Below, one piece after another: positions 22,973 to 39,532 of a stretch of 46,462 bases of DNA. The stretch is from an uncultured bacterium (GTDB lineage Bacteria > Planctomycetota > Phycisphaerae > Phycisphaerales > SM1A02). The notes below the pieces were generated by a model. The model searched no databases. It saw nothing but the letters and a program-made list of their open reading frames with translations, and was not told the DNA's origin. How positions within the stretch are numbered: position 1 is the stretch's first letter; every line of letters begins with the position of its first letter. The position numbers were made by a program, and so were the translations under genes. The stretch covers positions 1 through 46,462 of the forward strand of contig CAITDI010000007.1 of assembly GCA_903891095.1 (NCBI GenBank). The letters run 5' to 3'.

Positions 22973-22976
22973 CGAG

Positions 22977-23130
22977 TGCCTGGCACGTGCCACGCAGTGC
23001 CAGGCACAGCGCGGCACGTGCCGTGCACTCGGTCGCGACCCCCGCGCATCGCGCGATTCCGGCCCGCGCGGCTCCCAAGCCGTCCGCACGGCACGTGCCA
23101 GCCAGTGCCAGGCACAGGGCGGCACGTGCC
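22977..23130. repeat. Palindrome-rich direct repeat upstream of the photolyase gene
   Basis: Four copies of the perfect palindrome GGCACGTGCC (22982-22991, 23013-23022, 23090-23099, 23121-23130) form two pairs with nearly equal internal spacing of about 31 bp. A 10-bp inverted repeat, TGCCTGGCAC (22977-22986) and GTGCCAGGCA (22997-23006), encloses the first. The two halves are a near-identical direct repeat about 108 bp apart. It may be a dispersed intergenic repeat or a regulator site; the window has no other copy. Confidence 0.85.
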
Positions 23131-23167
23131 GTGCACGTCCTGGCGGTTGTCGCGCGCAAGGGGTGAG

Positions 23168-23648: not shown

Positions 23649-23721
<73 letters not shown>

Positions 23722-36528: not shown

Positions 36529-37677
36529 ATGACCACCGCCGCCACCGAGACGCTCAAGCGCACGCCGTTCCACGCCCTCCACCTCGAGCACAAGGCCAAG
36601 ATGGTGGAGTTCGCCGGCTACGACATGCCGATCGCGTACGGCTCGATCATCGAGGAGCACAAGCAGTGCCGCGCGTCGGCGGGATTCTTCGACGTCTCCC
36701 ACATGGGCCGGCTCCGCTTCAGCGGCCGCCACGCGCGCCGATTCCTCGACCGCGTCTGCACGCGCCAGATCTTCGGCATGCAGCCGGGGATGATCCGCTA
36801 CTCGCTCATCTGCAACGCCCGCGGCGGCTGCCGCGACGACGTGCTCGTCTACTGCGTCGATGAAGACGAGTACCTGATGGTCTGCAACGCCTCGAACCGC
36901 CACAAGCTGCTCGGCCACTTTGCCGAGGTCAAGGGCGACATGGCCTTCAAGCTCGAGGACGAGACCGATTCGACCGCCATGGTCGCGATCCAGGGTCCGA
37001 AGGCGATGGACCTGGTTTCCAAGATGTCGAGCACGATCCCGACCATGAAGCGCTACCGCTTCATGATCAAGAACCTGGTGGTCATCAAGCTGCTCGTCTC
37101 GCGCACCGGCTACACGGGCGAGGACGGCGTCGAGGTGATCCTACCGTCGTCGATGGCCAAGCTCGCCCTTGGCATGGTGCTCAAGGACATGGGCTCCGAG
37201 ACCAGCGTGGTCAAGCCCGTCGGCCTCGGCGCGCGCGACACCCTCCGCATGGAGGCCGGCATGCCGCTCTACGGCCACGAGATCACCGAAGACATCGATC
37301 CGGTATCCGCGGGCCTCGAGTTCGCCATCAAGTTCGACAAGGGCATGACCGGCGGCCCGGATGACGAGCGCACCGGCACCTTCATCGGGCAGGAAGCGCT
37401 CCGCAAGATCAAGGCCGACGGCCCCGCGCGCAAGCTCGTCGGGCTCTTTGTCGAGGGTCGCCGTTCGCCGCGCCAGGGGATGAAGGTCCTCTCGGGCGGC
37501 AAGGAAGTCGGCGAACTCACCAGCGGCTGCATCTCGCCGTCGCTCGATCGCGGCATTGCGATGGCGTATGTCCCCGCGGCGATGGCCGTCGAGGGCGCTG
37601 CGTTCGAAGTCGATCTCGCCGGCAAGGGCACGACCCCCGCGGTCGCGACCAAGCTGCCGTTCCTCAACAACACCTGA
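36529..37677 (+). CDS. gcvT: Glycine cleavage system aminomethyltransferase (T protein)
   Basis: 382 aa. It transfers the methylene group of the aminomethyl-lipoyl H protein to tetrahydrofolate and releases ammonia. The sequence begins RTPFHALHLEHKAKMVEFAG and continues MPIAYGSIIEEHKQCR and FFDVSHMGRLRFSG, the canonical T-protein start. Folate-site elements GYTGEDGVEV and LGARDTLRMEAGMPLYGHE follow, with GFxE replaced by the expected DPVSAGLEFAIK. The family catalytic Asp (D101 in E. coli) region is NARGGCRDDVLVY. No gcvH or gcvP gene is adjacent in this window. The open frame continues upstream to 33670 only as antisense of bamA. Confidence 0.95.
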   Translation: MTTAATETLKRTPFHALHLEHKAKMVEFAGYDMPIAYGSIIEEHKQCRASAGFFDVSHMGRLRFSGRHARRFLDRVCTRQIFGMQPGMIRYSLICNARGGCRDDVLVYCVDEDEYLMVCNASNRHKLLGHFAEVKGDMAFKLEDETDSTAMVAIQGPKAMDLVSKMSSTIPTMKRYRFMIKNLVVIKLLVSRTGYTGEDGVEVILPSSMAKLALGMVLKDMGSETSVVKPVGLGARDTLRMEAGMPLYGHEITEDIDPVSAGLEFAIKFDKGMTGGPDDERTGTFIGQEALRKIKADGPARKLVGLFVEGRRSPRQGMKVLSGGKEVGELTSGCISPSLDRGIAMAYVPAAMAVEGAAFEVDLAGKGTTPAVATKLPFLNNT

Positions 37678-37685
37678 CCTGCTTG

Positions 37686-38055
37686 GAGCGATCGCAGCTG
37701 CGGCTGCTTCCCTCAGTGCCCTGATTCAGGGGTGCCCTCAGTCCGGCCAGTCGTGGGTCGTGCTTTCCCACGCCCACCGTCACGGCCGAAGACTGAGGGT
37801 GGGCGTGCGGCGACTCGTTGGCCGAGTCGACTCGGCTCCCTTTCGCGTGTCTCCGCAACGCGCGCGCCCGAAGTCGAGCGGTCGCAGCTGCGGCTGTTTC
37901 CCTCAGTGCCCTGATTCAGGGGTGCCCTCAGTCCGGCCAGTCGTGGGTCGTGCTTTCCCACGCCCACCGTCACGGCCGAAGACTGAGGGTGGGCGTGCGG
38001 CGACTCGTTGGCCGCGTCGACTCGGCTCCCTTTCGCGTGTCCCCGCAACGCGAGC
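37686..38055. repeat. Two tandem copies of a structured 190-bp element
   Basis: The 460 bp between gcvT and the sigma factor gene contain no gene. They hold two direct copies, 37686-37875 and 37876 to about 38055, with only a handful of differences. Each copy has CCCTG/CAGGG, a long stem made of CCCTCAGTC and CGGCC paired with GGCCG and GACTGAGGG (37735-37799 in copy 1), an inner GTGGG/CCCAC hairpin, a competing pair CACGCCCAC (37769-37777) with GTGGGCGTG (37799-37807), and a 16-bp palindrome GCCGAGTCGACTCGGC (37821-37836, one change in copy 2). Reading frames through it are side effects of its repeat nature. Confidence 0.88.
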
Positions 38056-38082
38056 GCGCGCACGGCGCGATCACGAAAACAC

Positions 38083-38112
38083 GACAACGCCCCGCAACCG
38101 CAGGGCGTTGTC
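38083..38112. terminator. Bidirectional terminator between gcvT and the sigma factor gene
   Basis: A perfect 10-bp stem GACAACGCCC/GGGCGTTGTC encloses a 10-nt loop. It is followed by CATCTTTCTCC on the plus strand and GTGTTTTCGTG on the minus strand. Its position between convergent genes fits. Confidence 0.7.
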
Positions 38113-38137
38113 CATCTTTCTCCGCTTCCGGAGTTTG

Positions 38138-39124
38138 TCAGCCGATGCGCGCGTCGCGGCGGCGGATCGGAATCGTGCGCGGCAGGGGCCGGCTTTCGTC
38201 GTTCGCGGCGGGCGCGGGGTCGCGGCGCGGCGCAAGCATCGAACGCTCGCCTTCCTCCAGCTGCTCCTGCATCATCTGGCGCAGGAAGCGCAGCGGACGC
38301 TCGTCGTTGATCTTCTGCTGCAGGCGGCGCAGCGCCTCGACCTCGATCTGGCGCACGCGCTCGCGCGTGAGGCCGACCTCATGGCCGATCTGCTTGAGCG
38401 TGAGCGGTTCCTTGCCCTCGAGGCCGTAGCGCAGGCGGATGACGCGCGCGTCGCGCTCGTCGATCTCCTCCAGCAGCTGGAGCACGAGGCGGAATTCCTC
38501 GCGGTTCGTGACCGATTCCTCGGGCTTGCCGTGGCGGTGATCCTCGAAGAACTCGTGGAGCTCGACGCCTTCGCCACCCTCGCCGCTCGGCGACTGGCTG
38601 GGCGCGTTGTAGGCGCGCACCGCGCGGCGCACGACGTTGAGCTTGCGGACCGGGATCTTGAGATCGTCGGCGAGTTCCTGCGTCGTCGCCTGGCGGCCGA
38701 ACTTCTCCTCGAGGCGGCGGGAAGCTTCCTTCCATCGCGCGATCAGGTCGACCATGTAGGCCGGGATATGGATCGGCTGCACGGCGTTGATCAGCGTGCG
38801 CTTGATCGCCTGCTTGATCCACCACGACGCGTACGTCGAGAAACGCGCACCCTGCGCGGGGTCGAAGCCCTCGACCGCGCGGATGAGACCGATGTTGCCT
38901 TCCTCGATCAGGTCCGCGAGCGAAAGGCCGCGGTTGACGTAGTTCTTGGAGATGGAGATCACCAGGCGCAGGTTCGCGCGGATCATCCGGTCCTTCGCAC
39001 CGCCGTCGGCGTCATTGATGATGCGCCAACCGAGAACCTTCTCCTCCTCCGCCGTGAGCAGGGGGACCTCGTTGATCTGCTTGAGGTAGAGATGTAGGTC
39101 TGACTGGAGTGACGAACGACCCAT
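38138..39124 (-). CDS. Sigma-70 family RNA polymerase sigma factor, RpoD/SigA type
   Basis: 328 aa. Region 1.2 is DLHLYLKQINEVPLLTAEEE (9-28); region 2 runs through NLRLVISISKNYVNRGLSLA, DLIEEGNIGLIRAVEGFD and RFSTYASWWIKQAIKR, the core-binding and -10-recognition segments. Region 3 follows, and region 4.2 is a helix-turn-helix (LTLKQIGHEVGLTRERVRQI, about 243-262). Region 1.1 and the long non-conserved insertion are missing, so it is either a short primary sigma or a group 2 sigma. The start at 39124 uses GAGG 6 nt upstream. The C-terminal tail is long, basic and unusual (about 40 residues). Divergent from the UVR gene by 408 bp. Confidence 0.93.
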   Translation of the reverse strand: MGRSSLQSDLHLYLKQINEVPLLTAEEEKVLGWRIINDADGGAKDRMIRANLRLVISISKNYVNRGLSLADLIEEGNIGLIRAVEGFDPAQGARFSTYASWWIKQAIKRTLINAVQPIHIPAYMVDLIARWKEASRRLEEKFGRQATTQELADDLKIPVRKLNVVRRAVRAYNAPSQSPSGEGGEGVELHEFFEDHRHGKPEESVTNREEFRLVLQLLEEIDERDARVIRLRYGLEGKEPLTLKQIGHEVGLTRERVRQIEVEALRRLQQKINDERPLRFLRQMMQEQLEEGERSMLAPRRDPAPAANDESRPLPRTIPIRRRDARIG

Positions 39125-39532
39125 GGACAACCTCGCTACCGGAGAGCGGACAACACATGACCGGGTCAACGCGCTACTTGTCGAGATGAGAACCGTGCCC
39201 TGTTCCTGATGTGACTGGCACGGGGAAGCGTCGTCGGGCCGTACGTGCACGGCAAGACGCAGGACGCGGCGCATCATGCGCTTCGTCCTTTTTCACTCCC
39301 TCGACGCCGCACTTCCGTGTGGGCGGGACTCTCCCTCGCCGGAGTTCTGGGCGCTGATGCGCCGCGAGCTCCGCGCGCTAACCTCGGAAAACAACCTCCG
39401 TACGCTGCAGTCGGCTCAGCCCTGCCGACGTCTGCAAGCATACACATCTACTTCTACGAGATGACGGTGGATCATCCCAAGTGGTCCGAACTTTCGGTTT
39501 GGGAAGGACGATGAATCGATTGAGAACCCGTG
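39125..39532. other. Intergenic region between divergent sigma factor and UVR-motif genes
   Basis: 408 bp without a convincing gene. It must contain the sigma factor promoter and the UVR gene promoter. A stem GTCGGC/GCCGAC (39410-39429) and a TACTTC that ends 6 nt before an ATG at 39461 are the only marks I see. That ATG opens an 18-codon frame ending at 39514 (17 aa), a possible leaderless small ORF, but unsupported. Confidence 0.5.

Follow-up and report, generated by a model that had tools for sequence, protein, structure and literature searches.

The region considered here lies in a window of 46,462 nt, by which I mean the whole stretch of DNA that was analysed, and is bounded by two converging genes. 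Upstream is gcvT (36529-37677, + strand, the start codon being my choice), which encodes the glycine cleavage T protein and matches the NCBIfam models TIGR00528 and PRK00389.1 above cut-off. Downstream is a gene for a sigma-70 family RNA polymerase sigma factor (38138-39277, - strand), identified by a match above cut-off to TIGR02937; its product also matches the equivalog models for RpoD and RpoS, below their cut-offs. Between the two lies a tandem duplication (37686-38065, + strand) of a compound unit of 190 bp, its copies (37686-37875 and 37876-38065) set head to tail. A preliminary description of the sequence had recognized two near-identical tandem units in this place, correctly: 37686-37870 repeats directly as 37876-38060, with 97% identity over 185 nt and a spacing of 190. 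The copies differ at 6 of the first 185 positions and at 10 over all 190, the last five positions being largely diverged. There is no mismatch at positions 50-114, which hold the big stem, and so the two copies in the window cannot by themselves yield covariation. Outside the repeat, still between the converging genes, an inverted repeat forms a terminator-like hairpin (38083-38112), and a hairpin resembling it is kept, as judged by eye, in 6 of 9 relatives.

The preliminary description also drew several structures within the unit. The stems are indeed present, in arms spanning 37735-37799 and 37925-37989, as are the pair CACGCCCAC/GTGGGCGTG and an extra CCCTCAGT. The role given to that 9-bp pair, as a competitor of the first fold or part of a pseudoknot, does not survive comparison among copies: it is kept in 75.5% of cells, against 75.9% in shuffled alignments, and is not conserved. 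The inner GTGGG/CCCAC hairpin gives a weak signal (pairing in 76.0% of cells and, in shuffles, 73.0%, the observed value being reached by 21 of the 500 shuffles; covariation 0.282 against 0.210). The 16-bp palindrome GCCGAGTCGACTCGGC is perfect in the first copy (37821-37836) and carries one change in the second (38011-38026). As RNA, the tandem pair folds strongly (z = -5.2). An Rfam scan of the window brought only a tRNA, located elsewhere, to its gathering score, and within 37600-38150 gave two weak hits, in copy 1 (23.4 of the required 50 bits) and at the end of gcvT (15.9 of 40 bits).

The unit is a compound of two repeat families, found at unit positions 1-26 and 45-151, as became apparent when it was compared by BLAST with 61 genomes. 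The genome to which the window belongs (hereafter the home genome) gave 37 matches, a count that includes overlapping matches on both strands, with up to 13 candidates scored per genome. Two of them are the window copies, and the other 35 lie within unit positions 41-155. Six other genomes match, all of the same genus and solely within unit positions 1-41. This division of the matches by part of the unit indicates that the joining of two separate repeats preceded the tandem duplication. The preliminary description had treated the unit as a single repeat.

The first family is a short hairpin repeat spread through the genus. Its first copy in the window (37686-37711, + strand) has the head GAGCGATC and a stem GCAGC (37694-37698) / GCTGC (37703-37707) around the loop TGCG; its second copy (37876-37901, + strand) has a change of C to T at one stem end. 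The family pattern may be written GAGCGGTCGC-N-GCTGCGGC-N'-GCT, and with up to 3 mismatches allowed it occurs in 15 of the 16 genomes examined from the genus, with no matches to the control patterns. When both variable stem positions are left free, the home genome has 68 matches. The positions N and N' are complementary in each of the 30 loci read from among these 68 (23 A-T, 6 C-G, 1 G-C), and a T-A pair also occurs among the matches in genus genomes; N and N' are not complementary in a few matches that bear mismatches. The 30 loci lie in gaps that are mostly convergent (22, with 6 co-directional and 2 divergent, according to my own gene caller and with clustered copies counted more than once). 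Unit positions 1-26 are thus a dispersed hairpin family of the REP type with compensatory changes in its stem, even though the 43 bases at 37686-37728 fold no better than shuffled sequences (z = -0.9). In three loci of relatives (L007 at about 1500-1580, L002 at about 1435-1525 and L070 at about 760-1150), this short repeat or pieces that look like it are found in tandem expansion, and in the relative represented by L070 it is different tandem repeats of its own that fill the same gap between gcvT and the sigma factor gene.

The second family supplies the core of the unit. Each window copy (37730-37836 and 37920-38026, both + strand) is what I will call an A half, consisting of the end GGGTGCCC, a side arm and half of a central palindromic arm; the first was delimited by BLAST, end-motif search and alignment, the second by the direct repeat together with the latter two. 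The side-arm hairpin of copy 1 (37735-37799, + strand) pairs CCCTCAGTCCGGCC with GGCCGAAGACTGAGGG and is marked by compensatory changes across copies; that of copy 2 (37925-37989, + strand) is identical to it over the aligned 79 nt. The 16-bp palindrome of copy 1, on the evidence of the inverted repeat and the alignment of elements, forms the tip of the central arm when the element is complete. In such an element, an A half faces a related, inverted B half around the shared central palindrome, and the whole is closed by GGGTGCCC/GGGCACCC.

The preliminary description had proposed a search for other copies by nucleotide and covariance models, and the core does recur within the home genome: besides the 37 BLAST matches, the end motif GGGTGCCCTYRGKCCG is matched 49 times when at most 1 mismatch is allowed, compared to once for the reversed-pattern control. 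From fetched stretches I read 25 ends of the A kind and 24 of the B kind by another rule, giving a set that is not exactly that of the 49 matches. They include 12 facing A/B pairs, of which 10 measure 194-196 bp and the others 170 and 221 bp. The 24-base reference ends of A and B differ at 3 positions, and the 10 elements of regular length, aligned with the 170- and 221-bp pairs left out, have a mean column identity of 88%. The window, which has A halves only, is not alone in carrying them in tandem, since contig C105 does so as well, with a spacing of 123. Elements are found at contig ends in the home genome (C28, C105 and C27; loci L061, L016 and L018), so the assembly seems to break at these repeats and the true copy number is probably higher than counted. 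By eye, the 20-base flanks of the 12 pairs, whose copies have diverged, show no evident target-site duplication. Within contigs there are no facing ends with the spacing of an insertion sequence and nothing between them, and assembly gaps could hide one.

How does the element fold? Folded as single-stranded DNA, 37730-37808 is more stable than its shuffles (z = -3.4). The consensus of the 10 aligned elements, obtained with RNAalifold, predicts a four-way junction with no unpaired bases at its branch point, composed of an 8-bp closing stem, side arms A and B and, between them, the central palindromic arm. The closing stem never varies, and covariation therefore has no bearing on it. The side arms do vary. 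In the A arms (22 of 25 A ends, 21 of them distinct, after dropping one truncated at a contig end and two lacking the 3' strand), 97.3% of cells are paired and 9 cells have changed on both sides, as against 2.7 in shuffles, with a covariation of 0.123 against 0.072. In the B arms (23 of 24 B ends, 22 of them distinct, after dropping one false end), the corresponding figures are 95.1% of cells paired, 4 changed on both sides against 0.4, and 0.062 against 0.030. When the partner is shifted by 1 to 3 columns, pairing falls below 60% in both arms. The compensation that the preliminary description proposed to look for in the stems is thus found across the copies in the genome, the two copies in the window giving none, and few columns carry it: the number of pairs changed on both sides is 1 in the A arms (0.9 in shuffles) and 2 in the B arms (0.3 in shuffles), and in complete elements 2 of 55 (shuffled mean 1.7).

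Folding energy often favours another shape. By my reading of the predicted structures, 8 of the 12 elements fold as one long imperfect hairpin, 3 form the local arms and 1 folds otherwise. A long-hairpin fold of the complete element, written by hand, nonetheless breaks at columns 10-187, 11-186 and 65-134, where the local arms hold. The long hairpin, though often of lower energy, is disfavoured because changes in the A arm are compensated inside the A arm.

The element shows a preference for gaps between convergent genes. Such gaps account for 13 of the 20 that bear elements (5 are co-directional and 2 divergent), compared to 8 of 62 gaps without an element in the same stretches (Fisher p = 1.5e-5). 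The orientations come from my own codon-usage gene caller, which is rough, and the background gaps from the same loci; three further element sites do not lie between two called genes and were left out of the count. The 18 proteins flanking 10 element sites match everyday families in Pfam (urocanase, Sua5, FlgH, ScpB, a PurK-like protein and others), and one of them is a recombinase of the phage integrase family. A scan for terminators found them in 4 of the 13 element-bearing convergent gaps and 1 of the 8 others, with settings too strict to detect the hairpin at 38083-38112 in the window, which makes the comparison uninformative. The recombinase gene (L014, 2848-3933) adjoins a cluster of elements on contig C66.

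Outside the home genome, no element came to light in any of the collections searched. Of 181 genomes of the family, 71 have at least one match to the end motif with up to 1 mismatch, the home genome accounting for 49 matches and the 180 others for 0 to 5 apiece, about the same level as the 0 to 7 matches to the reversed control in family genomes. A covariance model applied to 121 family genomes found the home genome only, under stricter filters that lose weak matches and with up to 21 candidates per genome. BLAST with one element against 400 genomes of the order (2 candidates scored per genome) gave matches in six others over 24-46 query bases; I rejected these loci as copies of the element, since by eye they read as coding sequence, in four cases what I take to be dockerin-like repeats. 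BLAST alone cannot prove absence, given the few candidates per genome and given that the search with the unit missed copies in the home genome that the end motif found. The exact 23-base pattern of the A end had no match in 84,980 species genomes nor in viral contigs, sets from which the home genome was possibly left out, and BLAST found no match in plasmids. At the corresponding locus, the gap between gcvT and the sigma factor gene is in view in 9 of 15 loci around the sigma gene in relatives from the genus, and the end motif, with up to 2 mismatches, occurs in none of the 15 loci, including the 9 gaps, two of which hold runs of N. As far as searched, then, the 195-bp element appears to be confined to the home genome.

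The literature offers several classes of repeats for comparison. REPs, REPINs and BIMEs are described as hairpin repeats that form clusters and inverted pairs, the members of a pair being separated by a conserved spacer; they lie mostly 3' of genes and occur in Planctomycetes as well (PMC3733652, PMC3116915). REPs are placed between unidirectional and convergent genes (PMC3733652), and for REPINs, population sequencing is reported to have revealed putative intermediates of transposition (PMC3116915). The element resembles them in being a dispersed palindrome in inverted doublets (its facing pairs, nearly all of one length) and extragenic, with 13 convergent and 5 co-directional gaps against 2 divergent ones. 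The suggestion in the preliminary description that the region might be a dispersed, REP-like element is borne out by the many copies, the inverted pairs, the compensatory changes, the preference for convergent 3' gaps and the absence from the gap in relatives. It differs from REPs in detail. The hairpin arm in each half is about 65 nt long, in contrast to the 20-40 bp repeat of REPs; its ends read GGGTGCCC, with no GTAG or CGTC tag evident by eye beside the arms in the alignments, whereas REPs have one of these tags unpaired at one end (PMC3733652); and it has tens of copies, going by the 49 end matches, some possibly hidden by contig breaks, whereas REPs usually exceed 100 per genome (PMC2817692).

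MITEs such as ERIC, NEMIS, RUP and Nezha are described as 70-300 bp in length, mostly intergenic, with terminal inverted repeats and strong secondary structure (PMC3733652). By this description of the class the element, at 195 bp, intergenic, structured and bounded by GGGTGCCC/GGGCACCC, is similar; it differs in its two unequal side arms and in that neither a related insertion sequence nor a target-site duplication was found. The TIR repeats of TIR-associated tyrosine transposases (TIRtrons) form moderately abundant families of inverted repeats, often dimeric, and occur in genomes that also have RAYT-like genes (PMC3733652). They flank a transposase gene, and here no such gene was found with the ends of the element. 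The element would then work like REPINs and MITEs, while falling short of strict REPs in tag, copy number and RAYT association, and no transposon partner was found that would make it a proven MITE.

As to an enzyme, the search of the home genome found two genes of the Y1 type that resemble REP-associated tyrosine transposases (L019, 1465-2082, and L020, 1261-1962). Their products score 51.6 and 54.8 of the 80 bits demanded by the NCBIfam RAYT model, below its cut-off. Both genes have copies of a palindrome containing GGCACGTGCC on either side, L020 being cut by a contig end. The end motif of the element, with up to 2 mismatches, occurs in none of the 28 Y1-transposase loci of the genus, within 1.5 kb on each side, and thus no RAYT-like gene among them is flanked by the ends of the element, as would be expected of a REP. 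Spread of the element by the RAYT-like proteins is unsupported, as the palindrome flanking their genes is a different one. It may be mobilised in trans, or it may be a relic.

I consider it likely that the region is a tandem-duplicated compound of the genus-wide REP-like hairpin and the A half of a non-autonomous mobile repeat akin to REPINs and MITEs; the 195-bp element is best read as a new family of that kind, so far in one genome. The analysis shows that it is dispersed, that its side arms carry some compensatory changes, that it is biased towards convergent gaps and that relatives lack it in the corresponding gap; its mobility, the enzyme and any effect on RNA I infer. In the scheme I propose, a single strand of the complete element would fold as a four-way junction whose two side arms are hairpins; these would be recognised in single-stranded DNA by an enzyme, supplied in trans, that copies or moves the element; and selection against damage to promoters and genes would leave copies mainly in 3'-3' intergenic gaps, where their hairpins, once transcribed, may as a side effect hinder 3' exonucleases or lessen read-through between the convergent genes.

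The same location can be given a different meaning. If the elements were functional 3' elements, their hairpins, formed in RNA from either direction, would end or protect both convergent transcripts, and spread would be secondary. The bias towards convergent gaps, the near-palindromic sequence that reads alike on both strands and the strong RNA fold of the tandem pair are what one would then expect. Location alone does not show function, however, since a general tendency of REPs to be found mainly downstream of coding regions has been reported (PMC3733652); moreover, by eye, no run of T follows the arms, and the copies in the window adjoin a separate terminator-like hairpin, similar to one kept by relatives that lack the repeats. 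I regard this explanation as unlikely. A regulatory RNA specific to the locus, whether riboswitch, attenuator or small RNA pair, is very improbable, and with it the metabolite- or factor-sensing terminator of the preliminary description. Glycine riboswitches control gcv genes elsewhere, and the unit is structured and adjoins gcvT, but it lies downstream of that gene rather than upstream, matches nothing in Rfam at gathering score, was not found in the gap in relatives, has a competing pair that is not conserved and a core found also beside unrelated genes (those for urocanase and a PurK-like protein, flgH and scpB), and has the hairpin at 38083-38112 separate from it.

The small difference between the A and B ends and the near-constant length of the pairs would also suit a MITE that shares the ends GGGTGCCC... 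with a classical (DDE) insertion sequence, the transposase being lost or fallen into an assembly gap, and longer copies could be hidden where copies stop at contig ends. Against this stand the lack of facing ends with the appropriate spacing within any contig, the lack of an evident target-site duplication and the compensatory changes in the side-arm hairpins, which DDE transposases are not known to need. I consider such an origin quite improbable. A more adventurous proposal, unlikely but worth stating, is that the element is a device at the level of DNA: in single-stranded DNA it would fold into a Holliday-like four-way junction with two different side arms, on which a structure-specific enzyme other than the RAYT-like proteins of the genome would act. 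If true, this would define a class of repeats whose mobility or function requires a branched junction, a simple hairpin being insufficient.

On the preferred reading, that of a mobile repeat akin to REPINs and MITEs, a striking pattern of sequence finds its explanation in ordinary repeat biology. Two repeat families are added to those of Planctomycetota, neither of them found by keyword in the open-access literature, where the letters of a sequence are not searchable. The element offers a compact test case for the question of which enzyme, other than the RAYT-like ones of the genome, spreads palindromic repeats lacking a transposase of their own, and its unequal halves amount to a natural covariation experiment on the folded form.

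The palindromes that flank the RAYT-like genes constitute a third repeat family. Their type, GTGCCTGGCACGTGCC, has 207 matches in the home genome, compared to 13 for the control. Y1 genes of relatives (in loci L083, L085, L086 and L087) are flanked by similar palindromes, and the window itself has a cluster of the GTGCCTGGCACGTGCC type at 22976-23136, about 0.5 kb from the tRNA gene at 23649-23721.
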